Source: Rubellimicrobium mesophilum DSM 19309
Lineage (GTDB): Bacteria; Pseudomonadota; Alphaproteobacteria; Rhodobacterales; Rhodobacteraceae
NCBI RefSeq assembly: GCF_000600335.2
Contig: NZ_KK088561.1
Coordinates: forward strand, 1 to 64,000
Direction of reading: 5' to 3'
Length of the DNA: 64,000 bases
Shown here one piece after another: positions 24,972-40,871 of this stretch. The notes under the pieces are model-generated. The model saw only the letters and a list, made by a program, of their open reading frames with translations. It was not told the origin of the DNA and did no database searches. Every line of letters starts with the position of its first letter. The stretch's first letter is position 1. Both the position numbers and the translations under genes were made by a program.

Positions 24972-26299
24972 CTACTCCGCCGCGTCCCGGGCGAGGGCAG
25001 GCGCCCCGTAGGGCACGTTCCGCCCGCCGTAGCGCCGGACGCGAATGTTGCACTGCTCCGCGTGCCCCACGAACCCCTCCAGCAGGCAGAGCCGCGAGCC
25101 GTATTCCCCCACCAGCGCCGCCGCCTCATCCGTCAGGATGCGCTGGTAGGAGTGCGTCTTGAGGAACTTGCCAACCCAGAGCCCGCCGGTGTAGCGCCCC
25201 GCCTTGCGCGTGGGCAGCGTGTGGTTGGTGCCGATCACCTTGTCGCCGTTCGCGACGTTGGCGCGCGGCCCCAGGAAGAGCGCCCCGTAGCTCGTCATGT
25301 TCTCCAGGAACCAGTCGTCCCGGTCGGTCATGACTTGGACGTGCTCGTAGGCCATGTCGTTGGCGACCTGCAGCATCTCCTCGTCGGTGTCGCAGAGGAT
25401 CACGTCGCCGTAGTCGCGCCACGACACCGAGGCGGTCTCGGCGGTCGGCAGGACTCCCAGCAGCCGCTCGACCTCCGCCATGGTCCCCTCCGCCAGCCGG
25501 CGCGAGGTGGTGATGAGGCAGGCGGGCGAGTTGTACCCGTGCTCGGCCTGCCCGAGGAGGTCCGTCGCGCAAAGCTCCGCGTCCACGGTGTCGTCGGCGA
25601 TCAGCATGGTCTCGGTCGGCCCGGCGAAGAGGTCGATCCCGACGCGCCCGTAGAGCTGCCGCTTGGCCTCGGCGACGTAGGCATTGCCCGGCCCCACGAG
25701 CATATCGACCGGCTTGATCGTCTCGGTCCCCAGCGCCATGGCGCCCACCGCCTGCATCCCGCCCAGGACGTAGATCTCGTGCGCGCCGCCCAGGTGCATC
25801 GCGGCAACGATGGCCGGGTGGGGCGCCCCTTCACCGGCGGCGCAGAGGCGACGATGCGCGGCACCCCGGCCACGTTCGCCGTCAGCACGCTCATGTGCGC
25901 CGAGGCGACCATGGGGAACTTGCCGCCGGGCACGTAGCACCCCACCGACTGCACGGGGATGTTGCGGTGCCCCAGGATCACCCCCGGCAACGTCTCGACC
26001 TCGATATCGCGCATTGAGGCCCGTTGCGCCTCGGCGAAGCGCCCGATCTGCTCTTGCGCGAAGCGGATGTCGGCCATGTCGCGGGCCGAGACCTTCTGCA
26101 TCGCCGCATCGATCTCGGACGGCGAGAGCCGGAAGCTCGGCGGGTCGTAGTTGTCGAACCTCGCCGACAGTTCCCGCACCGCCGCGTCGCCCCGCGCGGC
26201 GATGTCGCCCAGCACCGTCTCGACCGTCGCGCGCACCTTGGCGTCGTCCTCGGCCCGCGCCGCCTCGGGCTTGCCGCGCTTCAGGTGCGTGATCGCCAT
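24972..26299 (-). pseudogene. Histidinol dehydrogenase family protein 2, apparent frameshift
   Basis: This is the second HisD-fold enzyme of the window, about 442 residues. It has [34 protein letters not shown], metal-site QAEHGYNS, catalytic Glu-His in YEHVQVM, and the C-terminal [19 protein letters not shown]. The C-run at 25825-25828 (plus strand) seems to lack one base, which separates PPVKG from [13 protein letters not shown] 26299 has GGGAGG six bases upstream. It is the first gene of the operon with SDR, lacI, bicupin, metE-like and hydrolase genes, and operator D lies 100 bp upstream. Sequence divergence from copy 1 suggests a different substrate or step, not recent duplication. Confidence 0.84.
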
Positions 26300-26398
26300 G
26301 ACCGCCTCCCACCTTGCGGCGCGCCCGGGCCGCCGCATTCCCAAGATCGTGCCCGGCGGAGTCGCTCGCACCGGCCCTCGCCCCAGATCCTAGCAATC

Positions 26399-26508: not shown

Positions 26509-27561
26509 TCAGCCCTGGCTGGCCAACCTGTCCCCCGTCTTCGCATCGAAGAGGTGGCAGATCGCCGCCGGCACGCGCATCGAGACCAGCTCGCCGATCT
26601 CGACGCGGACCTCCTTGTGCGCCTTGACCGCGACCAAGGCGCCGCCGGCCCGAACGGTGACCATGGTGGCATCGCCAAGGAGCTCGGTCGTGTAGGCCGG
26701 AGCGACGATCTCTCCCTCGGGGGCCAAGGTGGCATCCTCGGCCCGGAAGCCGAGCGTGACCGGCCCGTCCGGTGTCCTAAGGCCGGTGATCGTGACGTTC
26801 TCCCCCTCGAAGACGCCGCCGCGCAGCGTGCCGTTCAGGAGGTTCATGGCCGGGTTGCCGATGAAGCCCGCCACGAAGGTGTTCGCGGGCCGGTCGTAGA
26901 TGTCCGTCGGCGCGCCGATCTGCTGGACCACGCCACCCTTCATCACCACCACGCGGTCGGCCAGCGTCATCGCCTCCACCTGGTCGTGGGTCACGTAGAT
27001 CGTCGTGACCTGCAGCTCGTGGCTCAGGTTCTTGATCTGCGCCCGGGTGGAAACTCGCAGCTTCGCGTCGAGGTTCGACAGCGGCTCGTCCATCAGGAAG
27101 ACCGAGGGCTGCCGAACGATGGCCCGCGCGAGAGCGACCCGCTGACGCTGCCCGCCCGACAGGGCCGCCGGCTTCCGTTCGAGGAAATCCTCCAGCTCCA
27201 CCATGGCCGCCGCGCGCCGCACCCGGGCATCGTGCTCCGAGGCAGGGATGCGACGAACCTTCAGCGGGAACCGGATGTTCTCGTAGACCGACAGGTTCGG
27301 GTAGAGCGCGTAGCTCTGGAACACCATGGCGATGTCCCGGTCCTTGGGGTCGAGGTTGTTGACCCGCTTCCCCCCGATCAGGATGTCGCCCGAGCTCGCG
27401 TCCTCCAGCCCGGCGATCATCCGCATCGTCGTGGTCTTGCCGCAGCCGGAGGGGCCCAGGAGCACCAGGAACTCCCGGTCCGAGATGGTGAGGTCGAGGT
27501 CCTTCACCCCCACGAAGGCGCCCCAGCGCTTGGTCACGCCTCTCAGCTCGATCTCGGCCAT
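26509..27561 (-). CDS. ABC transporter ATP-binding protein (UgpC/MalK-type)
   Basis: This 350-residue CUT1 ATPase has Walker A GPSGCGKTT, Q-loop MVFQSYALYP, signature LSGGQRQRVALARA, Walker B VFLMDEPLSNLD and switch TIYVTHDQVEA. A C-terminal TOBE/regulatory domain covers about 240-350. No permease or binding-protein gene adjoins it. The operator upstream (site E) is shared with the binding-protein/permease operon at 17157-20376, which lacks an ATPase, so the two parts probably make one importer. UgpC/MalK-type ATPases can also serve several importers. Confidence 0.93.
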   Translation of the reverse strand: MAEIELRGVTKRWGAFVGVKDLDLTISDREFLVLLGPSGCGKTTTMRMIAGLEDASSGDILIGGKRVNNLDPKDRDIAMVFQSYALYPNLSVYENIRFPLKVRRIPASEHDARVRRAAAMVELEDFLERKPAALSGGQRQRVALARAIVRQPSVFLMDEPLSNLDAKLRVSTRAQIKNLSHELQVTTIYVTHDQVEAMTLADRVVVMKGGVVQQIGAPTDIYDRPANTFVAGFIGNPAMNLLNGTLRGGVFEGENVTITGLRTPDGPVTLGFRAEDATLAPEGEIVAPAYTTELLGDATMVTVRAGGALVAVKAHKEVRVEIGELVSMRVPAAICHLFDAKTGDRLASQG

Positions 27562-27628
27562 GAGCCTCCCCGCACCCGCTCGCGTCCCGCCAAGTCTTGC
27601 GCCACCCGCCCGGCGTGGCAAGAACTTT

Positions 27629-27689: not shown

Positions 27690-28451
27690 TCAGCGGGTGG
27701 TGTAGCCCCCGTCGATGACGACGACGCTGCCCGTCATGTAGCTCGACGCGTCCGTGCAGAGGAGCAGCGCCGCCGTGGCGATCTCCTCCACCGTCCCGGC
27801 CCGGCGCATCGGCGTCATATCGGTCCAGACCTCCGCCCATTCCGGGATCTCGAAGCCGCCGGCCGTCATGTCGGTCATGATGTAGCCCGGCGCGATGGCG
27901 TTCACCCGGATGTTGTCCTTGGCGAGGTCGGAGGCGAGGCTCTTGGTCAGCATGTGCACGGCGGCCTTGGAGGCGTTGTAGGCCGTCTGGATCTGCGGGA
28001 CGTTGCTGATGTGGCCCGAGATCGAGCCGATGTTCAGGATCACCCCGCCGCCCTGTGCCCGCATCGGCCGGATCGCGGCCCGGCAGGCGAAGTAGACCGA
28101 ATCGAGGTTGACCGCCATCAGCCCCCGGTAGCGCTCGTCCGAGAAGTCCTCGGTCGGGCCGTGCATGGCGACGCCGGCGTTGTTCACCAGGATGTCGAGC
28201 CGTCCCCGGTCCCGCGCCACGCCCGCCACCAGGGCGTCAATGGCGCCGGGCTGGGTCACGTCGCAGGGCCTGTATTCGACCTTGTGACCCTCGGCCCTCA
28301 GCTCCTCCGTGCCGCCCGGGTCGGTCCGGGCCGAGACGATCACGTCCGCCCCCGCCTCGGCCAGCGCCCGCGCGATGCCGAGCCCGATGCCCCGCGTGCC
28401 CCCCGTCACCAGCGCTACCTTCCCGTCGGCGCGGAACCTGTCGATGATCAT
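27690..28451 (-). CDS. Short-chain dehydrogenase/reductase (polyol/sugar type)
   Basis: This 253-residue classical SDR has GGTRGIG (cofactor loop), NNAGVAM, ILNIGSIS (catalytic Ser), YNASKAA (Tyr/Lys) and VVVIDGGY at the end. It is the last gene of the leftward polyol operon, 29 bp after the zinc-dependent dehydrogenase. SDRs in this position commonly oxidise sugar alcohols or reduce keto-sugars. The substrate cannot be specified. The downstream gap (27562-27689) contains operator E of the neighbouring ATPase gene. Confidence 0.87.
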   Translation of the reverse strand: MIIDRFRADGKVALVTGGTRGIGLGIARALAEAGADVIVSARTDPGGTEELRAEGHKVEYRPCDVTQPGAIDALVAGVARDRGRLDILVNNAGVAMHGPTEDFSDERYRGLMAVNLDSVYFACRAAIRPMRAQGGGVILNIGSISGHISNVPQIQTAYNASKAAVHMLTKSLASDLAKDNIRVNAIAPGYIMTDMTAGGFEIPEWAEVWTDMTPMRRAGTVEEIATAALLLCTDASSYMTGSVVVIDGGYTTR

Positions 28452-28480: not shown

Positions 28481-29596
28481 TCAGGGCCGCAGCGTGACCT
28501 TCAGCGACGACGACCCGTCGATCACCATCTGGATGCCCAGCTCGAACTCCTCGAGCGGCAGCTTGTGGGTGATGATCTCGTCCATCGGCAGCCGCCCCTC
28601 AGCGATCATGCGGATCGCCGTCTCATAGGCGTAGGGGCTCAGGTGGACGCCCTTGATGTCGAGCTCCTTCGTGTCCCCGATGATCGACCAGTCCGCCGTC
28701 ACCGCCTCGCGGAACACCGAGAACTCGATGAAGCGCCCGCGCTTGCGGATCATGTCGAGCCCCTGCGTCACCGCGCGCGGCGCGCCCGTAGCCTCGACAT
28801 AGACATCGCAGCCGTAGCCGCCCGTCAGCTCCTTGACCTTCGCGACCGCGTCCTCCTCGCGCGGGTTGATGGTCATGTCGGCGCCGCAGCGCTTCGCGAG
28901 GTCCAGCCGGGCCGGATGCAGGTCCAGCGCGATCAGCCGCTTGGGGTTCTTCATCCGCGCCGCCGCGACCATGCCCAGGCCGAGGCTCCCGCACCCCGCG
29001 ATCACCACGGTGTCGTTGAACCGCAGCTCCGCCCGGTTGATCGTGTGGACGGCGCAGCCCAGAGGCTCCACGAAGACGCCATGCTCCGGGTCCATGCCTT
29101 CGGGCAGCTTGTAGTTCAGGGCCTTCCTCGGAAACACCATGTACTCCGCCCAGGACCCCGGCGTCCGCTGGTGGAAGCCGTAGATGTCGTGCGGCTCGCA
29201 GAGCCAGTAGAGCCCCTCCTTGCAGTAGAGGCACTCCCCGCAGGGCACGATCTGCTCCGAGCAGACATGGTCCCCGACCTTCAGCCCATCGCGCCCCTCG
29301 GCCCCCTCGCCGAACTGCACCACCTGCGCCACGAACTCGTGCCCCACGGTGATCGGCGGCTCGATGTAGCGCCCCTGGCCGTCGTTGCTCCCCCAGATCT
29401 TCGGCGCGCCGTCATAGCATTTGCCGTCCGAGGCGCAGACCCCGGCGAGGATCACCTTCACCAGCACCTCGCCCGGGCCCGGCTTCGGCACCGGCACCTG
29501 CTCCAGCCGGTAGTCGCGCGGCCCGTGGCAGACCACGGCCTTCATGGTTTCGGGGATGGCCTGAGCCAGCGTCTCGGGGTTGCTCTGGATGTTCAT
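28481..29596 (-). CDS. Zinc-dependent alcohol dehydrogenase, erythritol/L-threitol dehydrogenase-like
   Basis: This 371-residue medium-chain dehydrogenase has a catalytic zinc site with Cys54 (GVCASD) and GHE at 85-87. A structural zinc site is formed by Cys119, 122, 125 and 133, and the NAD loop reads GCGSLG. The signature stretches SEQIVPCGECLYCKEG and CEPHDIYGF resemble the erythritol/L-threitol dehydrogenase group of actinobacteria and alphaproteobacteria. It would oxidise a polyol to a ketose. It lies between the FrcA-type ATPase gene (42 bp upstream) and the SDR. Substrate assignment is by family resemblance only. Confidence 0.85.
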   Translation of the reverse strand: MNIQSNPETLAQAIPETMKAVVCHGPRDYRLEQVPVPKPGPGEVLVKVILAGVCASDGKCYDGAPKIWGSNDGQGRYIEPPITVGHEFVAQVVQFGEGAEGRDGLKVGDHVCSEQIVPCGECLYCKEGLYWLCEPHDIYGFHQRTPGSWAEYMVFPRKALNYKLPEGMDPEHGVFVEPLGCAVHTINRAELRFNDTVVIAGCGSLGLGMVAAARMKNPKRLIALDLHPARLDLAKRCGADMTINPREEDAVAKVKELTGGYGCDVYVEATGAPRAVTQGLDMIRKRGRFIEFSVFREAVTADWSIIGDTKELDIKGVHLSPYAYETAIRMIAEGRLPMDEIITHKLPLEEFELGIQMVIDGSSSLKVTLRP

Positions 29597-29638: not shown

Positions 29639-30400
29639 TCAGCCGCCGACCATGAGCCGGACGACCTCCTCGTGCGAGGTCTCGCTGATCCGCCGCTCCC
29701 CGGCCTCGACCCCGCGCCGCAGCACGATGATCCGGTCCGCCACAGCGAAGATGTCCTGCAGGTTGTGCGAGATGAAGATCACTCCGCGCCCCTGAGCCTT
29801 GAGCTGGTGGATGAGCGCGATCACCTTGCGCTGCTCCGGCACGCCCAAGGCGGCGGTGGGCTCGTCCATGATGAGGACGCGCGCGTTCCAGTAGACCGCC
29901 CGGCCGATCGCCACCGCCTGCCGCTGCCCGCCCGAGAAGTTGCTGACCGGCGCGTCCATCCGGCTCACGTGGAAGTCGAGCCGCGCCATCGTCTCCCGCG
30001 CCGCCTCGGCCATTCGGCGGCGGTCGAGCACCGGCAGGAAGCCCAGCGCCTTCCGCATCGGCTCGCGCCCCAGGAAGATGTTGCCGCCGATGGTCAGGTT
30101 GTCCGCGAGCGCCAGGTCCTGGTAGATCGTCTCGATTCCCCGGTCCCGCGCCTCCTGCGGCGAGGCGAAGCGCACCGGCTGGCCGTCCAGCAGGATCTCG
30201 CCCCCCGAGGGCGCGTAGACCCCCGAGACCGCCTTGATAAGCGTCGTCTTGCCCGCGCCGTTGTCCCCGGCCAGCGCCACGACCTCGCCCGCGCGGATGG
30301 TCATGGAGACTTCCTTGAGCGCCTGCACCGCGCCGAAGCTCTTGGACAGGTGCCGGATCTCGAGGAGCGGCGCCGTGGGGGTCCCGCTCAGGTCATTCAC
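29639..30400 (-). CDS. Sugar ABC transporter ATP-binding protein (FrcA-like, single ATPase domain)
   Basis: This 253-residue ATPase has Walker A GDNGAGKTT (45-53), Q-loop TIYQDLALAD, signature FSGGQRQAVAIGRA, Walker B VLIMDEPTAALG and switch VIFISHNL. Unlike RbsA/XylG-type CUT2 ATPases of about 500 residues it has one nucleotide-binding domain, as in FrcA of Sinorhizobium, so a homodimer must power the importer. Its start overlaps the permease stop by 8 bp. Confidence 0.92.
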   Translation of the reverse strand: MNDLSGTPTAPLLEIRHLSKSFGAVQALKEVSMTIRAGEVVALAGDNGAGKTTLIKAVSGVYAPSGGEILLDGQPVRFASPQEARDRGIETIYQDLALADNLTIGGNIFLGREPMRKALGFLPVLDRRRMAEAARETMARLDFHVSRMDAPVSNFSGGQRQAVAIGRAVYWNARVLIMDEPTAALGVPEQRKVIALIHQLKAQGRGVIFISHNLQDIFAVADRIIVLRRGVEAGERRISETSHEEVVRLMVGG

Positions 30401-31454
30401 TTTGCCGCCCCCCCGAGAACGACCGCTGCGCTTGGTCGATCAGCACCGAGATGATGATGACCACGCCGACGGAGATGAACTGCCAGAAGGGCTTCACGTC
30501 CACGAAGACGAGCCCGTACTGGATCACCGCGATCACGAAGGCGCCCGCGACGGTGCCGAGGATCGTGCCCGAGCCTCCGAACAGCGAGGCTCCTCCGATG
30601 ACCACCGCGGCCACCGAGTCGAGCAGCAGCGGCTCGCCCGCCTGCGCCGCGCCGGCCGAGAACTGGGCCGTGTAGAGGACCCCCGCGAGCCCGGCGCAGG
30701 CCCCCGACAGGACGTAGAGGCGGAAGAGGTGCTTCCTGATGTCGATCCCCGCCCGCCGCGCCGCCTGCGGGTTGGCACCGATGGCGTAGTTGTGCTGCCC
30801 GAAGCGAGTCTGGCTCAGCACGTAGTGCATCAGCAGGATGAAAACGGCAGCGATGATGACCGTCCAAGGGATAGAGCCGAACAGCCGACTGTTCCCCAGG
30901 GCCGACAGAACCGGGTTGCTGACGGGCACCGTCGTCCCGCCCGCGAGAAGGAAGGCCACGCCGCGCGCCACGCCGAACATGCCAAGCGTGCCGATGAAGG
31001 GCGGCACCTTGAGATAGGCCACGAGGAAGCCGTTCACGGCCCCAGGGATGCAGGCGATCAGGACCCCCGCCAGAAAGCCCACGAGCACCGCAACCGGCGC
31101 GGGCATCAGCGGATTGGCCCAGACCACCACATGGGCCGCGACCACGGCAGCCAGACCCATGATGAAGCCCAGCGACAGATCAATGCCGCCCGAGATGATG
31201 ACGAAGGTCTGCCCGGTGGCGAGCAGGAGACGCGCCACCGCGAAGATTGCGATGGACTGGAGGTTGTAGGTGTTCCCGAGGAACGTGCCCCCGTAGACGA
31301 TGCGCGCCCATCCCTCGAAGAAGAGAAGGAGCGCCCCGAGAAACAGCCAGGCGCGCAGCTTCGCGATGCGTTGGAGCAGCGTCAGCCGTCCCGCGCCATG
31401 GTCCGCCGGCGGAGCGACAGGGGCAGCCCGGTCGATATGGGGATCGGAGGTCAT
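30393..31454 (-). CDS. Sugar ABC transporter permease (FrcC/RbsC-like)
   Basis: This 353-residue CUT2 permease has about ten helices. The characteristic LATGQTFVIISGGIDLSLG, GTLGMFGVARGVAFLLAGG and GGASLFGGSGTILGTVAGAF are all present. The N-terminal 30 residues are polar and cytoplasmic. It forms the importer with the binding protein upstream and the FrcA-like ATPase downstream. A terminator-like hairpin separates it from the binding-protein gene, so it is probably expressed at a lower level. Confidence 0.93.
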   Translation of the reverse strand: MTSDPHIDRAAPVAPPADHGAGRLTLLQRIAKLRAWLFLGALLLFFEGWARIVYGGTFLGNTYNLQSIAIFAVARLLLATGQTFVIISGGIDLSLGFIMGLAAVVAAHVVVWANPLMPAPVAVLVGFLAGVLIACIPGAVNGFLVAYLKVPPFIGTLGMFGVARGVAFLLAGGTTVPVSNPVLSALGNSRLFGSIPWTVIIAAVFILLMHYVLSQTRFGQHNYAIGANPQAARRAGIDIRKHLFRLYVLSGACAGLAGVLYTAQFSAGAAQAGEPLLLDSVAAVVIGGASLFGGSGTILGTVAGAFVIAVIQYGLVFVDVKPFWQFISVGVVIIISVLIDQAQRSFSGGRQSE

Positions 31455-31515: not shown

Positions 31516-32502
31516 TTACTCGGAGTAGATGAACTTGGCGACCTCGGGGTCGTCCACGTTCGAGGAGTCGAGCACCGTGAAGCCCGTGCCGATGGCCACC
31601 GGGATCGACTGTCCGGTCAGGTGGGCATAGGCCGCCGCCACGCCGAACCAGCCGATCTCGGCCGGGTGCTGGGCGATGGCCATGTCCACGAGACCCGACT
31701 TGATGTTGTCCACGATGGACTGGGGCGCGTCGAAGGCCACGACCCGGATGGTGCCCGTCTGGCCGGCCTGCTGAACCCCGTTCGCCGCCCCGATGGCCGA
31801 GAAAAGGTTGGCGCCGAACACGCCCTTGAGGTTGGGGCTGCGCGCGAACACGGCCTGGAGCTGGGACGCCGCGTTGTTGGCGTCGTTGTTGTTGAACTGG
31901 GTCTCCAGAACTTCGATGTTCGGAAAGTTCTCCGACATCTCCAGCTTGAAGCCTTCCTCGCGCTGATCGGTGGTCGAGATGCCGGGGTTCACGTTCGAGA
32001 CGTAGACCGCGCCCTCGCCGCCGATGGCCTCGGCGAGCGCCCGCGCCGCCATGCGCCCGCCCAGGACGTTGTCCGAGGCGATGTAGGACAGCGGGAAGTC
32101 GGCGTCGCCCGCCCCGGTCTGGTACTTGCCGGTGCCGATGAAGGTGTCCACGGTGATGACCGGGATGCCGGCGTCCGCCGCGCGGCGCAGCGGCTCCACG
32201 AGCTGCGTGGTGTCGGTGGGGGCGATCAGGATGGCGTCCGGCTGGCGCGCGATGACGGCGTCGAGAACCGGCACCTGCTCCACCGGGTTGAAGTTCGGCG
32301 CGCCCTGGAACACGAGCTCCACCCCCAGCGCGTCGGCGGCGGCCTGCGCGCCCCGGTTCATCGTGATGTAGAAGGCGTCGGTCGTCAGGCCGGGGATCAG
32401 CGCGACGGTATACTTCGGGGCGTCCTGCGCCTTGCTGGCGCGAGGCAGCACCCCGGCGAGCGCAGCCAGTCCGGCGGCACCCAGAAGCGTGCGGCGTTCC
32501 AT
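31516..32502 (-). CDS. Sugar ABC transporter substrate-binding protein (FrcB/RbsB-like)
   Basis: This 328-residue periplasmic binding protein has the signal peptide MERRTLLGAAGLAALAGVLP, ending ASKAQDA. The mature part has the ribose-binding-protein fold: VALIPGLTTDAFYITMNRGAQ, DAILIAPTDTTQLVEPLRRA, GIPVITVDTFIG, YIASDNVLGGRMAA and VVAFDAPQSIVDNIKSG. These segments belong to the pentose/hexose-binding type 1 class. The ATG has GGGAGGACA upstream. It is the first gene after the 101-bp gap with a sigma-70-like promoter. Confidence 0.92.
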   Translation of the reverse strand: MERRTLLGAAGLAALAGVLPRASKAQDAPKYTVALIPGLTTDAFYITMNRGAQAAADALGVELVFQGAPNFNPVEQVPVLDAVIARQPDAILIAPTDTTQLVEPLRRAADAGIPVITVDTFIGTGKYQTGAGDADFPLSYIASDNVLGGRMAARALAEAIGGEGAVYVSNVNPGISTTDQREEGFKLEMSENFPNIEVLETQFNNNDANNAASQLQAVFARSPNLKGVFGANLFSAIGAANGVQQAGQTGTIRVVAFDAPQSIVDNIKSGLVDMAIAQHPAEIGWFGVAAAYAHLTGQSIPVAIGTGFTVLDSSNVDDPEVAKFIYSE

Positions 32503-32578: not shown

Positions 32579-32607
32579 ATAACAGCGGCAGCGAACGATT
32601 GCGTCAA
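32579..32607 (-). promoter_or_regulatory. Putative sigma-70 promoter of the FrcBCA-type importer
   Basis: On the minus strand, TTGACG (-35, 32607-32602) is followed after 17 bp by TGTTAT (-10, 32584-32579), 77 bp before the binding-protein start. The -35 overlaps the stop of the upstream kinase gene. A separate start here would explain the only sizeable gap in the operon. Confidence 0.45.
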
Positions 32608-34028
32608 GTGCCTTGCTGACTCAAGGGAATTTCCAGCATCTCCCGCACCGACGCGACAAGCCCTCCGGAGTCGAGCGGCTTCGTCGTGTCCACGCGATGG
32701 ACCGGCGCGAGTCCCGTGGGTCCCGCCCGCCGCGCCAGCTCGACGAGCTCCGGGACGTAGTCGAGCCCCGGATGCCCGGGTCCCCGACCGGCCACGCGTT
32801 CGGCGTAGCGGCGCCCGATCTCCTCCGGCGGCGCCTCGCACCAGACCTCCGCGACGGCATCCATCCCGGCACGACCCAGCCCCTCCGACAGCATCGCGAG
32901 CGGCTGGAACCCGAACCAGGCATCCACGACGAATCCCGACCCCTCCGGCGCGTCCCGCATCAGGTCCCAGATCGCCCGGTAGCTCGCGCGCCCGAGCGTC
33001 CGGTTGAACAGCCGGTCCCCTGGCGGCAGCTCCTCCAGGAACGGCTGCTTCACCGTGTCAAGCGTCAGCCGCGGCCAGCCCAGCGCCTCTGCCAGCGCCC
33101 GCGCGACGGTGCTCTTCCCGCTGGCAGGCACCCCGTTGACGAGCACCGCCCGCTTCGTCACCCGGCCGCTCAGCGCCGCCACGGCGGCCCCGATCACTCC
33201 GGCCTCGTCCCCGAGCGCCGTCGCCCGGACCGGCACCCCGAACCATGGCGAGCCCGAGGAGGGCAGGGCACCCAGGGCCGCCACCGCCTCAGCTCCGAGA
33301 CCCCCGCCGAGGAGCACCACCTCCGGGTCAAGCGCCGCCGCCAGCGAATCGACCGCCCGGCGAAGCGGACCGGCCCAGGCGCGGAGGACGGCCCGGGCCG
33401 CCGGCTCCTCGGCCCGCGCCAGCAGGTCCCCAGCCCGCGTTCCCGCCGAAAGTCCCGCCTCCGCCACCAGCCGCCCCAGCGCCGTCCCCGAGCTGACCGT
33501 CTCCAGGCAGCCCCGCCGCCCGCAGAGGCACGACAGCCCTTCCGGCTCCATCACCAGATGCCCGAGCTGTCCCGCAGTCCTCTTCCCCCGCAGGAGCCGC
33601 CCACGCTCCAGCATCGCCCCGCCGATCCCGGTGCCGATGGTCAGCAGCACAGCATTGCCGCACCCTCGCGCCGCTCCGAATGCCTGCTCGGCCAGAAGCG
33701 CCATCGCCGCGTCGTTCTCCACGAGGACGCGCAGCCCCGTCGCTTCCTGCACGCGCTCAGCGAAGGGCATCCCCGAGAGGTCCACGTAGCCGCCCGACAG
33801 CACCTCACGCCGCTCGGCATCGACGCGCCCGGGTACGCCGATCCCCACGCCCACTGCCTCCGGGACCCGCAGCTCCGCGACCAGCGCGAGGCAGTCCGCC
33901 AGCACCGCCTCCGGCTCCCGCCGGGTCGCGACTCGCCGCTGCGCCAAGATCGTCCCCTTGGACGACACCAGCGCCGCCCGCAGATGCGTCCCGCCGATGT
34001 CGATGCCGATGGCGGCCCGGGGGCTCAT
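32604..34028 (-). CDS. Fusion of ROK-family sugar kinase and P-loop kinase
   Basis: This 474-residue protein has two kinase modules. Residues 1-287 are a ROK domain: ATP loop IDIGGTHLR (9-17), catalytic Asp106 in LVENDAAMA, and a zinc site His157...CLCGRRGC (167-174). Residues 292-474 are a shikimate/gluconate-kinase-like P-loop domain starting AVLVNGVPASGKSTVARAL (Walker A 299-307), with substrate loop GSGFVVDAWFGF. The junction has no stop and no internal start with a ribosome site, so the fusion looks genuine. Two phosphorylations by one polypeptide is an inference supported by the adjacent bisphosphate-type aldolase, whose stop overlaps this start (ATGA). Confidence 0.87.
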   Translation of the reverse strand: MSPRAAIGIDIGGTHLRAALVSSKGTILAQRRVATRREPEAVLADCLALVAELRVPEAVGVGIGVPGRVDAERREVLSGGYVDLSGMPFAERVQEATGLRVLVENDAAMALLAEQAFGAARGCGNAVLLTIGTGIGGAMLERGRLLRGKRTAGQLGHLVMEPEGLSCLCGRRGCLETVSSGTALGRLVAEAGLSAGTRAGDLLARAEEPAARAVLRAWAGPLRRAVDSLAAALDPEVVLLGGGLGAEAVAALGALPSSGSPWFGVPVRATALGDEAGVIGAAVAALSGRVTKRAVLVNGVPASGKSTVARALAEALGWPRLTLDTVKQPFLEELPPGDRLFNRTLGRASYRAIWDLMRDAPEGSGFVVDAWFGFQPLAMLSEGLGRAGMDAVAEVWCEAPPEEIGRRYAERVAGRGPGHPGLDYVPELVELARRAGPTGLAPVHRVDTTKPLDSGGLVASVREMLEIPLSQQGT

Positions 34029-34924
34029 GCCGCCCGGTGCCGCGCGATCACCGCCTTGATCTCGTTCAGCCGGGGCACCGCGACGTCGGTGAGCCGCCGC
34101 CGCGTCTCCTCCCGGTCGAGCGAGATGCAGTCCTTCCAGAGCGACCGACCTGCGATCACCCCATTGGCTCCGTTAGCCATCGCCGCCTCGACCTGCCCCA
34201 GGAAGGTCGCATGATCCACGCCCGCCGAGAGCACCGCCCAAGGCACGTCGCCCGCCATCTCGGTCACCGCCGCGCAGGCCTCCGGCGTCCCCGGATAGGG
34301 GATCTTCAGCACCTTCGCCCCGGCATCCAGACAGAGCCGAGTGCCCCCCAGGATCAGCTCGGGCACCTTCGCCTTGTGCTCCTCCGGCGTCTCCCCCTCG
34401 ACCGCATAGGTCAGGAACTCCACGACGAGCAGCAGGTCCTCGGCCGCGAAGTCCTCGACGATCCTCCGCAACGTCTCCAGGTTCTCCCGGTTCGCCTCCG
34501 GGCGGTCCGAGCGGAAATAGACCATGATCTTCCCGCCGGTCCCGCCCAGCTCCCGCACCCGCCGAGCGGTGACGCCCTCGACCAGCGTGGACACCCGGTA
34601 GCCCACGGGAGAGGTGTCCCACCCCGAGGCATCCAGCCCGATCAGCAGCCCCGTCGAGCGGTGCAGCACCCCTTGGTCCACGATCCCCGGCACCGCGCAG
34701 ACCGGGTCGAGCAGCACGCACCCCGCGTCTCGCGCGAGATACTGGGCGATGTCCATCTTCACGAGACCCAGGTCATCGTTCGAGATGCGCTTCCGCGCCT
34801 CCGGGTCGTCCGAGAGCAGCGACCTCATGCTCCCGCGCTGGTCGCAGGCCACGACCAGCATCGCGCCCTCATCGCCGCAGATCTGCTGGTAGCCCCGCCG
34901 CTCCGCCGTCGTCATCGCCGTCAT
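34025..34924 (-). CDS. LacD-like class I aldolase (tagatose-bisphosphate / YihT-type)
   Basis: This 299-residue TIM-barrel aldolase includes LVVACDQRGSMRSLL, LDPVCAVPGI, LLVVEFLTY and the probable Schiff-base lysine in AKVLKIPYPG, with VLSAGVDHATFLGQVE at the phosphate site. This is the pattern of the tagatose-1,6-bisphosphate aldolase LacD and sulfofructose-phosphate aldolase YihT group, which cleaves ketose (bis)phosphates to dihydroxyacetone phosphate and an aldehyde. It overlaps the ROK genes on both sides by 4 bp. The sugar cleaved is unknown. Confidence 0.86.
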   Translation of the reverse strand: MTAMTTAERRGYQQICGDEGAMLVVACDQRGSMRSLLSDDPEARKRISNDDLGLVKMDIAQYLARDAGCVLLDPVCAVPGIVDQGVLHRSTGLLIGLDASGWDTSPVGYRVSTLVEGVTARRVRELGGTGGKIMVYFRSDRPEANRENLETLRRIVEDFAAEDLLLVVEFLTYAVEGETPEEHKAKVPELILGGTRLCLDAGAKVLKIPYPGTPEACAAVTEMAGDVPWAVLSAGVDHATFLGQVEAAMANGANGVIAGRSLWKDCISLDREETRRRLTDVAVPRLNEIKAVIARHRAA

Positions 34925-35874
34925 CTTGGTCCCCCTTGCGAGCCGTCCAGCGCCAGCGCCGCCGCCCCGATCAGGCCCGAGTTCCCCCCGAGCCCCGCCT
35001 TCATTACCGGCACGTCCCGGAACGCCGCCATCGCGCGCGATCGGATCGTGGCGTGAATCTCCGTCTCCAGCAGGTCGAAGGCCTCGGCCACGCCGCCGCC
35101 CATCACGATCGCCTCCGGGCTGTAGAGGTGCAGGAGCCCCACGAACCCCAGCCCCAGCCACCGCGCCTCGAGGCCCAGCAGCCGCAGCGCCAGCGCGTCC
35201 CCCTCGCGCGCCGCCGCGACCACGTCCCGGGCCGTCAGGCCCTCGGGGTCGCGCCCCGACAGACGGCTTTCCGGCTGGCCCCGCACCGCCTTCCGCGCGG
35301 CGGCACCCAGCGCGCTCCCCGAGGCCAGCGCCTCGAAGCAGCCCGGCGCCCCGCAGGCGCAGGCCGGCCCGTCCACCGCCAGCGGCAGGTGCCCCACATG
35401 GCCCGCCATCCCCCGCCGCCCATGCAGGAGCCGCCCGTCCAGCACGACGCCCCCGCCGATCCCCGTGCTGACGGTCACATAGACCAGATGCCGCAACCCC
35501 CGACCGGCCCCGTGCCGCCACTCCCCGAAGGCCGCCGCGATCCCGTCGTTCTCCAGGACGACCGGCAGCCCGGTCCTCTCCGCCAGGATGCCCCTCAACG
35601 GGAGCCCGTCCCAGCCCGGCAGGGTGGGGATGTTCAGGATCGTTCCCGTCTCGCTGTCGAGCGGCCCGGGCGAGCAGATGCCGATGCCCCGCACCTCGCG
35701 CCCCTCCGGCGCGACCCGCGCGATCAGCACCGTCATCTGCCGCAGCACCGCCTCGGGTCCCCCGGCCGCGTCGGTCGGCTCGGCGGCGCGGGCGAGCAGC
35801 GTCCCGCCCTCCACCAGCGCCGCCCGGACCTGCGTCCCGCCGAGGTCGATCCCGATGGCGAGCGACTCAGCCAC
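34921..35874 (-). CDS. ROK-family sugar kinase
   Basis: This 317-residue ROK protein has IGIDLGGTQVRAAL, catalytic Asp in VLENDGIAAA, VYVTVSTGIGGGVV and zinc motif GHVGHL...CACGAPGCFEA. No helix-turn-helix precedes it, so it is a kinase rather than a NagC-type repressor. The start is a GTG at 35874, which overlaps the epimerase gene by 8 bp. It is the second ROK domain of this operon, beside the ROK/P-loop fusion. The two may act on the substrate and on a downstream intermediate. Confidence 0.86.
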   Translation of the reverse strand: MAESLAIGIDLGGTQVRAALVEGGTLLARAAEPTDAAGGPEAVLRQMTVLIARVAPEGREVRGIGICSPGPLDSETGTILNIPTLPGWDGLPLRGILAERTGLPVVLENDGIAAAFGEWRHGAGRGLRHLVYVTVSTGIGGGVVLDGRLLHGRRGMAGHVGHLPLAVDGPACACGAPGCFEALASGSALGAAARKAVRGQPESRLSGRDPEGLTARDVVAAAREGDALALRLLGLEARWLGLGFVGLLHLYSPEAIVMGGGVAEAFDLLETEIHATIRSRAMAAFRDVPVMKAGLGGNSGLIGAAALALDGSQGGPR

Positions 35875-36556
35875 GCTGCCCCCGCACCCAGGCGATCCGC
35901 CCCGCGAGGTCCGGGTCGTTGAACGCCAGCGACCCCATCACCACGGTGTCCGCCCCCGCCGCGCGCAGCCCCGGCACCGTATGCTCCCGGATGCCGCCGT
36001 CCGCGCCCAGCAGCACCTCCCGCGCGCCGATCAGCCCCTTGGCCTCCCGCAGCCGCGCCTCCGCCTCCGGGTCGAGCCCCTGGCCCTTGATCCCGATCCG
36101 AGTCCCCAGCAGCGTCAGCATCCTCACGCGCCCCAAGAACCGCTGCGCATCCGGGACAGGCGTGTGAAGCTGGAGAACGATCCCGCCCGCCAGGCCCCGC
36201 GCTTCGATCCGGTCCAGCGCCTCCTCGGCGTTCGCGTTCTCCGCATGGACGCTGACGAGGTCCGCGCCCGCCTCCGCGAACTGCTCGACCTGCGAGAGAA
36301 GCACCCCGTCGTCCACCATCAGGTGCACGTGCACCGGCTTCCGCGTCCGCTTGCGACAGGCCGCCACGAGGTCCGGAAAGAACAGCAGCGCCGGCGAGAA
36401 GTGCCCGTCCGCCACGTCCACATGGTAGAGGTCCACGAACTCGTCCACGCGCCCGATCTCGTCGGACAGCCGCCCCAGGTCCGCCGACCAGAGCGAGAAC
36501 TCGGCGAGGAGCCGGTCGCGGGGCAGGGTGCCCAGCCCACGTTCGGTCGTCGTCAT
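35867..36556 (-). CDS. Ribulose-phosphate 3-epimerase family protein
   Basis: This 229-residue TIM-barrel epimerase has YHVDVADGHFSP (metal-binding His and catalytic Asp), KPVHVHLMVDD, VSVHAEN and LGADGGIREHTVP (second catalytic Asp and phosphate site). The family interconverts ketose-phosphate C3 epimers. An AlsE-like role on a hexulose or tetrulose phosphate is possible because the operon is catabolic and has its own kinases and aldolase. Overlaps: 4 bp with the hydrolase upstream, 8 bp with ROK downstream. Confidence 0.85.
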   Translation of the reverse strand: MTTTERGLGTLPRDRLLAEFSLWSADLGRLSDEIGRVDEFVDLYHVDVADGHFSPALLFFPDLVAACRKRTRKPVHVHLMVDDGVLLSQVEQFAEAGADLVSVHAENANAEEALDRIEARGLAGGIVLQLHTPVPDAQRFLGRVRMLTLLGTRIGIKGQGLDPEAEARLREAKGLIGAREVLLGADGGIREHTVPGLRAAGADTVVMGSLAFNDPDLAGRIAWVRGQRG

Positions 36557-37359
36557 TCGGAAACCTCCGTAAGGAACTCGGCCAAGGCGGTCCGGACGTC
36601 CGCGACGTAGCGCTCGCGGCTTTCGGCCTTGGGCGTGATGCGAACGAGCCGCGCGCCCGGGATCATCCCGGCCAGCGTCTCGGCGTGGATCAGCGGATGC
36701 GCGAGGTCCCGGCCGTGCCCGACGACCAGGGTCGGCACGCGGAGGGCCCGGATGGCCTCCTCCGAGACGCCCGGATCGTCGGCTGCAAGCCGCAGGAGCA
36801 GCGCCCGCGTGACCGCGACGGGCTCGCGCGAGAAGAACCCCCGGAGCGAGGCGAGGTTGTCGGGCGCCTCCTTGGCGAGCCGGCGCGCCGTGTCGCTGGC
36901 CTCGAACGCCTCCCGCGCCAAGGCGGGATCGCAGCGCGCGAGCAGTTCCCCCACCAGCGCATAGGGCGCCATGTTCTCAGGCCGCGCCTCGCAGACCCAG
37001 GCCGGCCGCCCCAGGACCAGCCCGCTCACCAGATCCGGCCGCTCCACCGCGAGCCGCAGCGCCAGCGCCGCCCCCATCGAGATGCCGCCCACGACCACCG
37101 GGCCACCGAGCGTTTCCGCGAAGGCCGCAAGATCGCTGGCGAAGGTCCCGAACCCCAGCCGCCGGAGGGACCCCGCCTCGGACCCTCCGTGACCCCGGCA
37201 CTCGAGCGTCAGCCCCCGCCAGCCGATCCCGTCGGGAAAGACCTCCGCCGTCTGCCCTGCATCGCCGCAGAGCCCGTGCTGGAACAGCATCGTCCGCCCC
37301 TCGCCGACCTGATGGACGGCGAGCGTCACCCCATCCCGACGGAACGGCTCCAGCCTCAT
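36553..37359 (-). CDS. Alpha/beta-fold hydrolase
   Basis: This 268-residue hydrolase has the oxyanion region FQHGLCGDAGQ, LECRGHGGSE, nucleophile elbow GGISMGAAL and VPTLVVGHGRDLAHPL for the acid residue. The C-terminal catalytic His normally seen in G-x-x-H is not obvious: the end reads ITPKAESRERYVADVRTALA. The activity may therefore be altered, or a different His may serve. It overlaps the isomerase gene upstream and the epimerase gene downstream by 4 bp. A sugar-lactone or sugar-ester hydrolase would fit the operon, but this is only context. Confidence 0.78.
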   Translation of the reverse strand: MRLEPFRRDGVTLAVHQVGEGRTMLFQHGLCGDAGQTAEVFPDGIGWRGLTLECRGHGGSEAGSLRRLGFGTFASDLAAFAETLGGPVVVGGISMGAALALRLAVERPDLVSGLVLGRPAWVCEARPENMAPYALVGELLARCDPALAREAFEASDTARRLAKEAPDNLASLRGFFSREPVAVTRALLLRLAADDPGVSEEAIRALRVPTLVVGHGRDLAHPLIHAETLAGMIPGARLVRITPKAESRERYVADVRTALAEFLTEVSE

Positions 37360-38177
37360 CCGAGCTGGCCCCGCAGGAACCGCGCCACCCCCGGCGCCTC
37401 CCCGGCCGAGAGCCCGTGCGTCACCACCGCCCCGTCGAACCCCGCGCGCCGCAGCCCTCCCAGGAACCGCCCGAAGTCCACGACCCCCGATCCGGCCGCC
37501 ACGAAGCGCCTCCCGGGGTCCCGGTCCTTCGCGTGCGCCATGACGATCCGGTCCGCCAGCATCTCGACCGCCTCGTCCACCACGGCGCCATCCCGGAACC
37601 CGCCCAAGTCCTCGAACAGGTTCGCCGGATCGAGCACGATGCCGATGGGCGCCCCCGGGAACGCATCCAGCATTTCGCGCGCCCGCGCGGCGGAGCTCAC
37701 GACGTTGGCCATCTCCGGCTCCACGCCGATCACGACACCCGACCGCTCCGCCACCGGCAGGAGCAACCGCATCTCCGCCAGGAAATCCTCCCACGCCTCC
37801 CCCGAGCCGTTCTCCGGATGCGACCGCCATTGGTCCTCGGCATCCAGGCTCCCCGTGCAGACGGTCACGATCCCGGTCCCCATCCCGCGCGCCGCCCCGG
37901 CGATGGCCTCGAACGCCGCCCGCCCTGTCGCGCGGACCGACGGGTCGGGGTGGATCATGTTGTAGGTCGCCGACACAGCCGCGATGCCGATGCCTGTCGC
38001 CTCCGTCGCCGCCCGCACGGCCTCTACCGCCTCCGCAGGCACGACGCGGGGCAGGGCGCCCAGCCCCGAGCAGGCCATGTTGTACTGCACGCAGTCGAAC
38101 CCTGCCGCCTTCGCCGCAGACAGCACCTCGCCGGGCGTCTCCCCCGCAAACGTCTTGGCGAAGACCCCGAGCCGCAT
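37356..38177 (-). CDS. Sugar phosphate isomerase/epimerase (xylose isomerase-like TIM barrel)
   Basis: This 273-residue AP-endonuclease-2/xylose-isomerase-fold protein starts MRLGVFAKTFAGETPGEVLSA. Metal ligands are visible in VIGVEPEMANV (Glu), GIVLDPANLF (Asp), IVMAHAKDRD (His, Asp) and near the C-terminal THG. Such enzymes epimerise or isomerise free or phosphorylated ketoses and inositol intermediates. Its ATG overlaps the stop of the Gfo/Idh/MocA gene by 3 bp (ATGA). Confidence 0.82.
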   Translation of the reverse strand: MRLGVFAKTFAGETPGEVLSAAKAAGFDCVQYNMACSGLGALPRVVPAEAVEAVRAATEATGIGIAAVSATYNMIHPDPSVRATGRAAFEAIAGAARGMGTGIVTVCTGSLDAEDQWRSHPENGSGEAWEDFLAEMRLLLPVAERSGVVIGVEPEMANVVSSAARAREMLDAFPGAPIGIVLDPANLFEDLGGFRDGAVVDEAVEMLADRIVMAHAKDRDPGRRFVAAGSGVVDFGRFLGGLRRAGFDGAVVTHGLSAGEAPGVARFLRGQLG

Positions 38178-39247
38178 CACACCGCCCCCACCACCTCGGA
38201 CAGCCGAACCGGCTTCCCGGTCTCCGCCGAACGCGCCACCGCCACCATCCCTCGCACCGAGGCGAGCCCGTCCTCCACGAAGGCCGCCCCCGTCTCGGCG
38301 CCGTTCAGCACCCGGTCCGCGAAGGCCTCCATCTGCCGCCGGTAGAAGTGCCCGTCGGCGCCCAGCACCCGCGTCGTCGTCCCAGTCGCCTCGTGGAAGA
38401 TGTCCACGTCCGAGCTCTTGTAATACCAGGGATTGTAGGTCTTCGCGACGACCGACCCCCGCTCCCCATAGATCTGGAACCCCTCGTGCCAGTCCATCCG
38501 CACCGCGACCGTGAGGTCCAGGTGCCCCAGCGCCCCGCTCTCGAACGCCACGTCCACGAACCAGCACCAGGCCCCGAACCGCTCCAGCAGCTGCGCCTGC
38601 ACCTCCACGATCTCGCCACCGAGGAACCGCGCCGTGTCGATCAGGTGGCACCCATGCGCGAGCATGAAGTACCGCCGCTTGTCCGCCTTCGGGTCCTGTG
38701 CCGGCTTCCTCGCCTGCGCGCTCCTCACCATCAGCGGCTGCACCGCGTCGGTCATCGCGTAGCGGTGCGTCGAATCGCAGTACCAGGCCTTGAGCGCCAG
38801 CATCTGCCCCATCTCGCCTTGCACGAAGTCCCGCGCGCTCTGCACCCCGGCATCGAACCGCTTCATGTGCCCGACCTGGAGCACCAGCCCCGATCCGCGC
38901 ACCGCCTCCGCGAGTTCCTCGACCTCCTCCACGGCCACGCCCAGCGGCTTCTCGCAGAGGACGTGCTTCCCCGCCCGCAGCGCCATCAAGGACGCCTGCA
39001 CATGGAACGCATCCGCCGTCGCGATCACCACCGCGTCCAGTTCCGGGTCCGCCAGCATCGCCGCGTAATCGGTGTAGGTCCGGTCCGGCGCGTGCGTCGC
39101 CGCCATCCGCGCCAGCAGGTCCTCGGCCACATCGCAGATCGCATGGAGCCGCACGTTCCGCGCCTTGGTCGCGCTCTCGAAATGCGCCGCCTGCGCGATG
39201 GGACCGCAGCCCAGCACCCCCACCCGAAGCCGCCGCCCGTCGCCCAT
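38177..39247 (-). CDS. Gfo/Idh/MocA-family oxidoreductase
   Basis: This 356-residue NAD(P)-dependent sugar or inositol dehydrogenase has an N-terminal Rossmann domain with VGVLGCGPIAQAAH, DAVVIATADAFH and the family EKPLGV motif. The C-terminal substrate domain includes LAHGCHLIDTARFLGGE, with catalytic His-x-x-Asp in HLID. MGDGRRLRVGVLG is chosen as start, with GGGAGG upstream. It is the first gene of the long leftward operon and diverges from the sugar-importer operon at 39457. Substrate unknown. Confidence 0.88.
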   Translation of the reverse strand: MGDGRRLRVGVLGCGPIAQAAHFESATKARNVRLHAICDVAEDLLARMAATHAPDRTYTDYAAMLADPELDAVVIATADAFHVQASLMALRAGKHVLCEKPLGVAVEEVEELAEAVRGSGLVLQVGHMKRFDAGVQSARDFVQGEMGQMLALKAWYCDSTHRYAMTDAVQPLMVRSAQARKPAQDPKADKRRYFMLAHGCHLIDTARFLGGEIVEVQAQLLERFGAWCWFVDVAFESGALGHLDLTVAVRMDWHEGFQIYGERGSVVAKTYNPWYYKSSDVDIFHEATGTTTRVLGADGHFYRRQMEAFADRVLNGAETGAAFVEDGLASVRGMVAVARSAETGKPVRLSEVVGAV

Positions 39248-39363: not shown

Positions 39364-39456
39364 TCTGCTCCTACGCTCAACCATGAGCAGCAAAGCGGCC
39401 GCGCGTGGACCTCCACGGGCCAAGGACCGCAGCGCTCCACGGGAGGAGAGAAGACT

Positions 39457-40731
39457 ATGACGTCCAGACGGAATCTGCCCCTGCTCGCAGGGGTGGGGGC
39501 GATGGCGCTCGCCCTGTCGGCCGGCTTCGCATCGGCCACGCCGCGCACCAACATGCTGCACCAGTGGGCCACCGGCTCGGATGCCGAGGCCATCGCCAAG
39601 CTCGGCGAGATGTTCACCGCCGAGGGCGGCACCTGGGAGCAGACCTCCATCGCCGGCCACACCGCGAACACGCTGGCCAAGCTCCGCGCCGACGTGGTCG
39701 CGGGCAACGCCCCGCCCGCCGTGCAGCTCAAGGGCCCCGAGATCGCCGAGTGGAACGGCACCGGCATGACCATGAACCTCGACGAGGTCGCCACTGCCGG
39801 CAACTGGGACTCGGTCGTCGCGCCCGAGCTCATCGAGGTGATGAAGCCCGCCGGCTCCTGGGTCGCGGTGCCGATGAACATCCACCGCGTCAACTGGATG
39901 TACTACAACCCGTCCGTGCTCGAGGCCGCCGGCGTCGCCGAGGCGCCCAAGACCTGGGACGAGTTCAACGCCGCCTGCGAGAAGATCGTCGCCGCCGGCA
40001 AGATCTGCGTGGCCCACGGTTCCTTCGACTGGACCGACGCCACGACCTTCGACTCTATCGTCTACGGCATGGACCGCGACCTCTACCGGTCCGCCTTCGT
40101 CGAGGGCGACACCGAGGCCATGCGCTCCCAGCCCATGATCGACGCCTTCGCCGAATACCGTCGGATCGTCGACGAGTGGATGGACCCCGGGATGCCCGGC
40201 CGCCCCTTCGAGGAGGAGGTCGCCATGATGGCCAACGGCGACGCCGCCTTCCTCTTCATGGGCGACTGGACCATCGGCACGCTCAACGCCGGCGGCTACA
40301 CCTTTGGCGAGGACTACGAATGCACGCAGGCCCCCGTGAACTGGGGCGGCGACGGCTACATCCTGAACGCCGACTCGGTGGTGTTCTTCCAGCAGGACGA
40401 CCCCGACTACCAGGAAGGCAGCGTGCTGCTCGCCAACACGATCATGTCGCCCGAGTTCCAGACGGTCTTCAACCAGGCCAAAGGCTCCATCCCCGCGCGC
40501 ATGGACGTGGACCTGAGCCAGGGCTTCAACCCCTGCCAGGTGAAGAGCCAGGAGGACCTCGCCAAGTCCATCGAGCAGGGAACCCTCGTCCGCTCCATGG
40601 CCCACAACATGACCGTGCCGCAGGCCATGCGCGGCGCCATGATGGAGGTCATCACCGAGTTCGTGAACTCCGACATGGCCCCCGAGGATGCCGCCAACGC
40701 CATGGCCGACGCCGTCGAGGCGAACATGTGA
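39457..40731 (+). CDS. Carbohydrate ABC transporter substrate-binding protein (CUT1)
   Basis: This 424-residue periplasmic binding protein has signal peptide MTSRRNLPLLAGVGAMALAL, ending GFASA. The mature protein starts TPRTNMLHQWATGSDAEAI, the typical entry of CUT1 glucose/mannose-type binding proteins. It contains VAVPMNIHRVNWMYYNPSVL, KTWDEFNAACEKI and MANGDAAFLFMGDWTIG. Overall it is like the glucose/mannose and sugar-oligomer importers of Rhizobiales. GGGAGGAG precedes the ATG. It is the first gene of a nine-gene rightward operon. Confidence 0.92.
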   Translation: MTSRRNLPLLAGVGAMALALSAGFASATPRTNMLHQWATGSDAEAIAKLGEMFTAEGGTWEQTSIAGHTANTLAKLRADVVAGNAPPAVQLKGPEIAEWNGTGMTMNLDEVATAGNWDSVVAPELIEVMKPAGSWVAVPMNIHRVNWMYYNPSVLEAAGVAEAPKTWDEFNAACEKIVAAGKICVAHGSFDWTDATTFDSIVYGMDRDLYRSAFVEGDTEAMRSQPMIDAFAEYRRIVDEWMDPGMPGRPFEEEVAMMANGDAAFLFMGDWTIGTLNAGGYTFGEDYECTQAPVNWGGDGYILNADSVVFFQQDDPDYQEGSVLLANTIMSPEFQTVFNQAKGSIPARMDVDLSQGFNPCQVKSQEDLAKSIEQGTLVRSMAHNMTVPQAMRGAMMEVITEFVNSDMAPEDAANAMADAVEANM

Positions 40732-40740
40732 GCCGATTCG

Positions 40741-40764
40741 TCCCCCGGGATGCGTCCCGGGGGA
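40741..40764 (+). terminator. Intercistronic hairpin after the binding-protein gene
   Basis: TCCCCCGGGA-TGCG-TCCCGGGGGA is a perfect 10-bp stem with a 4-nt loop, 9 bp after the binding-protein stop. It has no clear U-tract. It probably stabilises the upstream message or attenuates transcription into the permease genes. The rest of the 140-bp gap holds GGGGTGTTGCG and a CGTTAGCC element, but no gene. Confidence 0.6.
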
Positions 40765-40871
40765 CACTCCGCAAGGCGTTGCGTCGGGGGTGTTGCGACC
40801 GTTCGATCGTGTAACGGACCGTTAGCCTCCTCGGCGCATCCTGCACGGGACCTCTCCAAGGACCCTGACCC

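Follow-up and report, generated by a model that had tools for sequence, protein, structure and literature searches.

A ROK kinase fused in one frame to a P-loop kinase beside a LacD-like aldolase: a candidate two-step ketose kinase

Background

In the tagatose 6-phosphate pathway, a ketose 6-phosphate is converted to a bisphosphate, which then undergoes aldol cleavage, and the tagatose-6-phosphate kinase LacC is a PfkB-type enzyme. D-tagatose also appears in the altritol/galactitol pathway of Agrobacterium tumefaciens C58, which, as Wichelecki is said to have described in 2015, makes this ketose from polyols; this pathway reportedly employs a PfkB-type tagatose kinase followed by a C4 epimerase that leads to fructose 6-phosphate, and is said to involve neither a ROK-P-loop fusion nor a bisphosphate aldolase. 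For Escherichia coli, a published account gives PfkB followed by GatY/KbaY as the tagatose 6-phosphate route (PMC11907403).

Here, we describe a locus of Rubellimicrobium mesophilum DSM 19309 where two unrelated kinases are joined in a single protein encoded next to a LacD-like aldolase. The window, that is, the whole stretch of DNA that was analyzed, comprises 64,000 nucleotides (contig NZ_KK088561.1, positions 1 to 64,000), and all coordinates given without a locus label refer to it.

Results

The fusion gene (32604..34028, minus strand) is an open reading frame coding for a protein of 474 amino acids. A previous analysis made from the DNA letters alone (hereafter, the sequence-only reading) had described this protein as a combination of two unrelated kinase folds, a description that the Pfam and PDB sequence searches bear out and to which we add the strand. 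A plus-strand reading of 32604-34028 was rejected, the frames there being antisense only. The Pfam matches extend over residues 7-284 (ROK) and 295-413 (AAA_33), leaving ten residues (285-294) between them. As the sequence-only reading had held, the ATP sites of both halves look complete, the ROK half having DIGGT and GTGIGG and the P-loop half GVPASGKS. The two halves belong to PF00480 and PF13671, and neither is filed under a characterized kinase. In the records that we examined, annotated copies are named only “ROK family protein” or “AAA family ATPase”. We found no characterized ROK-P-loop enzyme in the openly licensed PMC papers searched, in line with the sequence-only reading, which knew of no enzyme of this build.

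The search for the domain pair in other genomes that the sequence-only reading had proposed yielded the same fusion at 75 of 127 related loci. The others, under the bit-score and distance thresholds that set the class assignment, comprise 8 loci with an adjacent separate ROK gene, 43 PTS loci without an adjacent ROK gene, and one unclassed locus (L035) that is cut by the contig start. These 127 loci consist of 85 of L025-L110 and 42 of L147-L188, with the window, L189 and L190 outside the count, and the 75 fused loci include two that, having contigs of equal length, are judged to be second copies, L182 (of L050) and L183 (of L068). The pattern scan of genome contigs with the P-loop half gave 133 relatives, of which the best 80 were retained, and many rhizobia are among the relatives found. 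In a profile search at E 1e-20, the P-loop half was detected in 11 of 398 genomes sampled across the phylum, counting that of R. mesophilum itself, in 37 of 198 genomes from an enteric family (f49), and in one of 101 genomes of another family (f53). Within the family of R. mesophilum, 16 of 198 genomes (again including its own) pass E 1e-3, and five others are strong matches, at 3e-36 or better; the kinases are fused in two of these (L025 and L026) and encoded by adjacent separate genes in three. The 43 PTS loci correspond to the 37 matches from f49, one additional genome of f49 (G567), one of f53 (G420), two of Erwinia, one of Pantoea and one of Sodalis. Among the 8 adjacent loci, L101, which comes from a metagenome assembly, has a ROK frame that continues into the Walker A region, which suggests a former fusion that a frame change has disrupted. 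At 80% completeness, the layout B cluster was found in none of 5426 E. coli genomes; some layout B match was present in 1318 of these genomes and, among the matches listed, all were short PTS IIC.

The ROK half (approximately residues 1-285; 33174..34028, minus strand) matches PF00480 at 177.7 bits (E 5e-52), against a gathering cutoff of 22.9, and the PDB sequence search aligned ROK glucokinases with about residues 6-285. In addition to the ATP motifs, this half contains Asp106 and CLCGRRGCLE, an instance of CxCGxxGCxE, which we take to be the zinc motif of the ROK family. Both the window and all 80 ROK halves compared (72 fused and 8 separate) have this zinc motif, and the active-site residues are invariant in 28 of 28; locus L063 begins inside the ROK half, and the Asp motif is not shown there. 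Where the Glu of ExGH, a feature of ROK glucokinases, would be expected, the window has glutamine (Gln154, within QLGH), as do 80 of 80 ROK halves. With the ROK glucokinase model TIGR00744, the score is 144.2 bits, below the cutoff of 260.35, and the Glu of ExGH is absent as well. We considered and rejected the assignment of this half as a glucokinase, NanK, allose kinase or fructokinase, every matched NCBIfam model scoring below its cutoff.

The P-loop half (residues 286-474; 32607..33173, minus strand) was identified from its Walker A motif, a predicted model, a PDB match and conservation. It matches PF13671 (AAA_33) at 39.9 bits (E 6.5e-10; gathering cutoff, 27). We take GVPASGKS to be the Walker A motif, in which Gly-Lys-Ser/Thr is presumably needed for an intact P-loop; Gly304 and Lys305 are present in all 125 rows of the alignment, and Ser306 in 122. 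This alignment includes the window as well as two rows that are second copies, and leaves out L025, L035 and L101 (by elimination; too short). In the PDB sequence search, residues 290-466 matched 2rhm, a “putative kinase”, with E 5.9e-9. The predicted model has the P-loop kinase fold (mean pLDDT 93.2), and its best solved structure match is also 2rhm (Z 19.6, rmsd 2.0, 173 residues, 24% identity), followed by O-phosphoseryl-tRNA kinase (Z 15.5) and then by adenylate, gluconate and shikimate kinases, the gluconate, shikimate and sugar-kinase structures reaching Z 12.4-13.2 against 19.6 for 2rhm. The Foldseek and VIA searches leave room for other kinase families.

In the phylogenetic tree of the P-loop half (123 distinct rows, midpoint root), the three architecture labels require two changes, compared with a mean of 42.1 after shuffling. 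Given that the separate-gene rows sit among the fused rows (99/94; midpoint root only), the separate genes may have originated by fission, or the fusion may have arisen repeatedly. In the tree of the ROK half, which took in 27 fused ROK halves, the fused and adjacent ROKs form one set (SH-aLRT 91), with the rows from the own genome being partial and long-branched; the separate ROKs are scattered in this tree (4 changes), as opposed to the single change in the P-loop tree.

In the window, the fusion is the last of seven minus-strand genes (39247 down to 32604), each of which, with the chosen starts, shares 1 to 8 bases with its neighbor. Their order is a Gfo/Idh/MocA oxidoreductase (38177..39247) and a xylose-isomerase-like TIM barrel of PF01261 (37356..38177), both identified with Pfam and NCBIfam; an alpha/beta hydrolase (36553..37359; Pfam); an Rpe/AlsE-like, that is, ribulose/allulose-phosphate 3-epimerase-like, protein (35867..36556; Pfam and NCBIfam); ROK2, a second, stand-alone ROK kinase with a GTG start (34921..35874; Pfam and the open reading frame); a LacD/YihT-like class I aldolase of 299 amino acids (34025..34924); and the fusion, the start of which overlaps the aldolase gene by 4 bases. 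The aldolase neighbor noted in the sequence-only reading is thus real. Past the fusion, after 101 bases and on the same strand, come a sugar solute-binding protein (SBP; 31516..32502) that is 75-77% identical to PDB 5DKV from Agrobacterium vitis, a sugar ABC permease (BPD_transp_2; 30393..31454; Pfam and NCBIfam), and a sugar ABC transporter ATPase (29639..30400) assigned by reading the open reading frame and its relatives. These are followed by a zinc-dependent dehydrogenase (28481..29596, minus strand), with L-threonine 3-dehydrogenase as the best solved match and ketose reductase and sorbitol dehydrogenase next, and by an SDR (27690..28451, minus strand) for which the nearest solved structures are the putative polyol dehydrogenase 3awd and, second, the galactitol dehydrogenase 2wdz.

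The 35867-39247 module is rare at the fused loci (gfo at 6, TIM at 6, hydrolase at 4 and rpe at 4 of the 75, some loci being cut), and because few fusion loci carry it, the module looks like an accessory entry route. At the 200-bit threshold, none of the 83 loci with a fused or adjacent ROK yielded a ROK2; its motif reads HVGH, and that of the fusion QLGH. A second sugar ABC importer flanks the operon (39415-42696 and 26512-27570), with a binding protein, assigned by eye and having no NCBIfam match at 1e-20, and two permeases on the plus strand, and a UgpC-type ATPase on the minus strand. Farther out, at about 24972-26371 on the minus strand, a histidinol dehydrogenase-like gene (recognized by eye) appears to be split over two frames, through decay into a pseudogene or through a slip in the assembly.

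The aldolase scores above the cutoff of PF01791 (DeoC/LacD; 74.6 against 23.8 bits). Residues D28, K132, E169, K207, S233 and R260 are invariant in 22 of 22 sequences, and K207, which aligns with the Lys of YKVEMP in YihT, presumably has a catalytic role, as do the other conserved residues. Its best NCBIfam match, tagatose 1,6-diphosphate aldolase, is below the cutoff, and so is the score with every tagatose-bisphosphate aldolase model, including 157.6 against 184 bits for the best (NF009498) and 64.7 against 432.2 bits (TIGR01232); sulfofructosephosphate aldolases are among its nearest solved relatives. The neighbor of the fusion in Rhizobium sp. L51/94 is annotated as tagatose-bisphosphate aldolase. 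In A. vitis CG78 (L080), the SBP that adjoins the fusion hardly differs from 5DKV, the ligand of which we take to be alpha-D-tagatopyranose; no paper on 5DKV was found among the openly licensed PMC papers. From this presumed ligand and the aldolase homology, we consider D-tagatose the leading substrate, with about even chances of being the right one. By analogy with the A. tumefaciens pathway, the galactitol-dehydrogenase-like SDR would fit the feeding of D-tagatose from polyols; the zinc dehydrogenase, whose best solved match is not a polyol enzyme, counts against the two-step scheme discussed below.

The neighborhoods of the kinases differ between the architecture classes. A LacD-like aldolase is encoded within 2.5 kb at 74 of the 75 fused loci, the only miss being L025, on a contig of 4,285 bases; an ABC-importer SBP at 73 of 75, with L025 and L049, both at contig ends, as the misses; and a SorC/DeoR-type sugar-binding regulator within 4 kb at 74 of 75. 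No SorC-type regulator was detected in the window at E 1e-3, and the genome of R. mesophilum, which is 91.6% complete, contains only paralogues that are 30-31% identical. At the 8 ROK-adjacent loci, the aldolase is present in 7, the SBP in 6 and the SorC-type regulator in 5, the remaining locus, L082, having a truncated aldolase gene where the contig begins. PTS IIC is encoded at none of the 75 fused loci and at all 43 loci where the P-loop kinase lacks an adjacent ROK gene; at the latter, a SorC-type regulator occurs in 14, and no SBP was detected at the 200-bit threshold. Each of these 43 loci has one kind of aldolase, LacD-like in 24 and an unrelated class II enzyme in 19, with none having both or neither; the 83 fused or ROK-adjacent loci yielded no class II aldolase. 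In the P-loop tree, ten LacD clusters of one layout are nested inside class II clusters of another, so that the aldolase type has changed at least twice (midpoint root, judged by eye). In combination with PFK-family genes, the PTS loci divide into 14 with a LacD-like aldolase and PFK, 10, including that of Erwinia sp. ErVv1, with a LacD-like aldolase and no PFK, and 19 with a class II aldolase and PFK. In the SorC-aldolase-P-loop-PTS layout, the enteric clusters end in a gene for a protein of roughly 100 residues that has no Pfam or NCBIfam match (L102:13867-14169 is an example), and a gene of similar size is found in other layouts.

Discussion

Across all these loci, the P-loop kinase and one ketose-cleaving aldolase remain constant, and the first phosphate comes from one of two sources, either ROK with ABC import or the PTS, which phosphorylates the sugar during import. 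From this exchange of partners, we infer two consecutive phosphorylations, and the fusion is probably a two-step ketose kinase in which the ROK half would act first and the P-loop half second, with the aldolase splitting the bisphosphate. The ROK half would use ATP to phosphorylate a ketohexose that is imported by the ABC system or derived from a polyol, most likely at C6, which is where ROK kinases usually act. With a second ATP, the P-loop half would then phosphorylate the opposite end of this ketose 6-phosphate, and the resulting ketose 1,6-bisphosphate would be split into two triose phosphates by the LacD-like aldolase of the overlapping gene. In the enteric relatives, the P-loop kinase would act on the sugar phosphate that the PTS has made, followed by an aldolase of either class I or class II. 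The broader proposition is that a single polypeptide converts a ketohexose, most likely D-tagatose, to the 1,6-bisphosphate, and that the P-loop half founds a new class of ketose-phosphate kinases, neither PfkA nor PfkB, that also serves enteric PTS pathways; to our minds, this proposition is evenly balanced between right and wrong. The suggestion in the sequence-only reading that a sugar bisphosphate could be generated in one polypeptide is thus upheld in its genomic context, namely the constant company of the aldolase and the replacement of ROK by the PTS; its chemical part is more conjectural and is weakened by the PFK-like genes of the PTS clusters. These genes are the main complication for a simple scheme, given that their products could themselves make the bisphosphate. 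Also against it, ROK2 and the epimerase fall outside the scheme, and the SorC-type regulator known from the other loci is absent from the window.

Several other readings have to be weighed against consecutive phosphorylation. It seems unlikely, albeit conceivable, that the P-loop half acts after the aldolase, with a monophosphate being split and the free triose (glyceraldehyde or dihydroxyacetone) then phosphorylated. Loci with one each of first kinase, aldolase and P-loop kinase fit this order too, as does the proximity of the window aldolase to the sulfofructosephosphate aldolases, which cleave a sugar bearing a single phosphate. However, the fusion partner of the P-loop half is the first kinase and not the aldolase, which fits kinase steps in succession. 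Furthermore, the class II aldolases that replace the LacD-like enzyme in 19 of the 43 PTS clusters belong to the ketose-bisphosphate kind in the two cases scanned, scoring 261.4 and 262.5 bits with TIGR00167, the NCBIfam ketose-bisphosphate aldolase model, against a cutoff of 215.6; if the first step is at C6, such an aldolase would also depend on a phosphate at C1.

We give little credence to the possibility that, where present, the PFK-like enzyme makes the bisphosphate, leaving for the P-loop half another metabolite of the pathway or a second entry sugar handled in parallel. This reading draws on the PFK-family gene found within 6 kb in 33 of the 43 PTS clusters, such as the gene for a divergent member at L102:11242-12228, and is countered by the lack of any PFK-like match within 6 kb at all 83 fused or ROK-adjacent loci and in the other 10 PTS clusters. 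Moreover, the three PFK copies that we read, with TIDND in all, GGDGS in two and GGGGS in the Pantoea copy, deviate from PfkA at what we take to be substrate positions.

A regulatory or non-catalytic, nucleotide-binding role for the P-loop half is highly improbable, even if the nearest solved relative of this half bears no more specific name than “putative kinase”: the Walker A lysine K305 and seven more charged residues (D324, K327, D369, R407, R411, R415 and H419) are invariant in 125 of 125 rows, and the P-loop kinase stands alone in all 43 PTS clusters. The sequence-only reading had allowed that one half might be inactive in all homologues; the presumed active-site residues are kept in both halves of the homologues examined. 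The other reservation expressed there, that the fusion is a local sequence or assembly error, can be dismissed with near certainty, given the one-frame fusion at 75 of the 127 loci, including those on the complete replicons NZ_CP015318.1 (L047) and NZ_CP072144.1 (L034).

If consecutive phosphorylation by the fusion is correct, an unrelated protein fold would join the enzymes that make ketose bisphosphates, one chain would hold both priming steps of a glycolysis-like route, and a family annotated in generic terms would gain a testable function.

Among the known systems, the closest solved fold to the P-loop half is the Caur_3907 putative kinase of Chloroflexus (2rhm). The N-terminal half shares the fold family and the ATP motifs with the ROK sugar kinases (glucokinase, NanK and allose kinase) and differs from them in having Gln in place of the Glu of the ExGH motif and in its scores below the NCBIfam cutoffs. 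The A. tumefaciens C58 pathway resembles the one proposed here in that D-tagatose would come from polyols, and does so in a rhizobial relative. The tagatose 6-phosphate pathway is similar in its succession of ketose 6-phosphate, bisphosphate and aldol cleavage, the aldolase here being LacD-like, but its second kinase is of the PfkB type, whereas here the corresponding step would be carried out by an unrelated P-loop fold that is fused to the first kinase.
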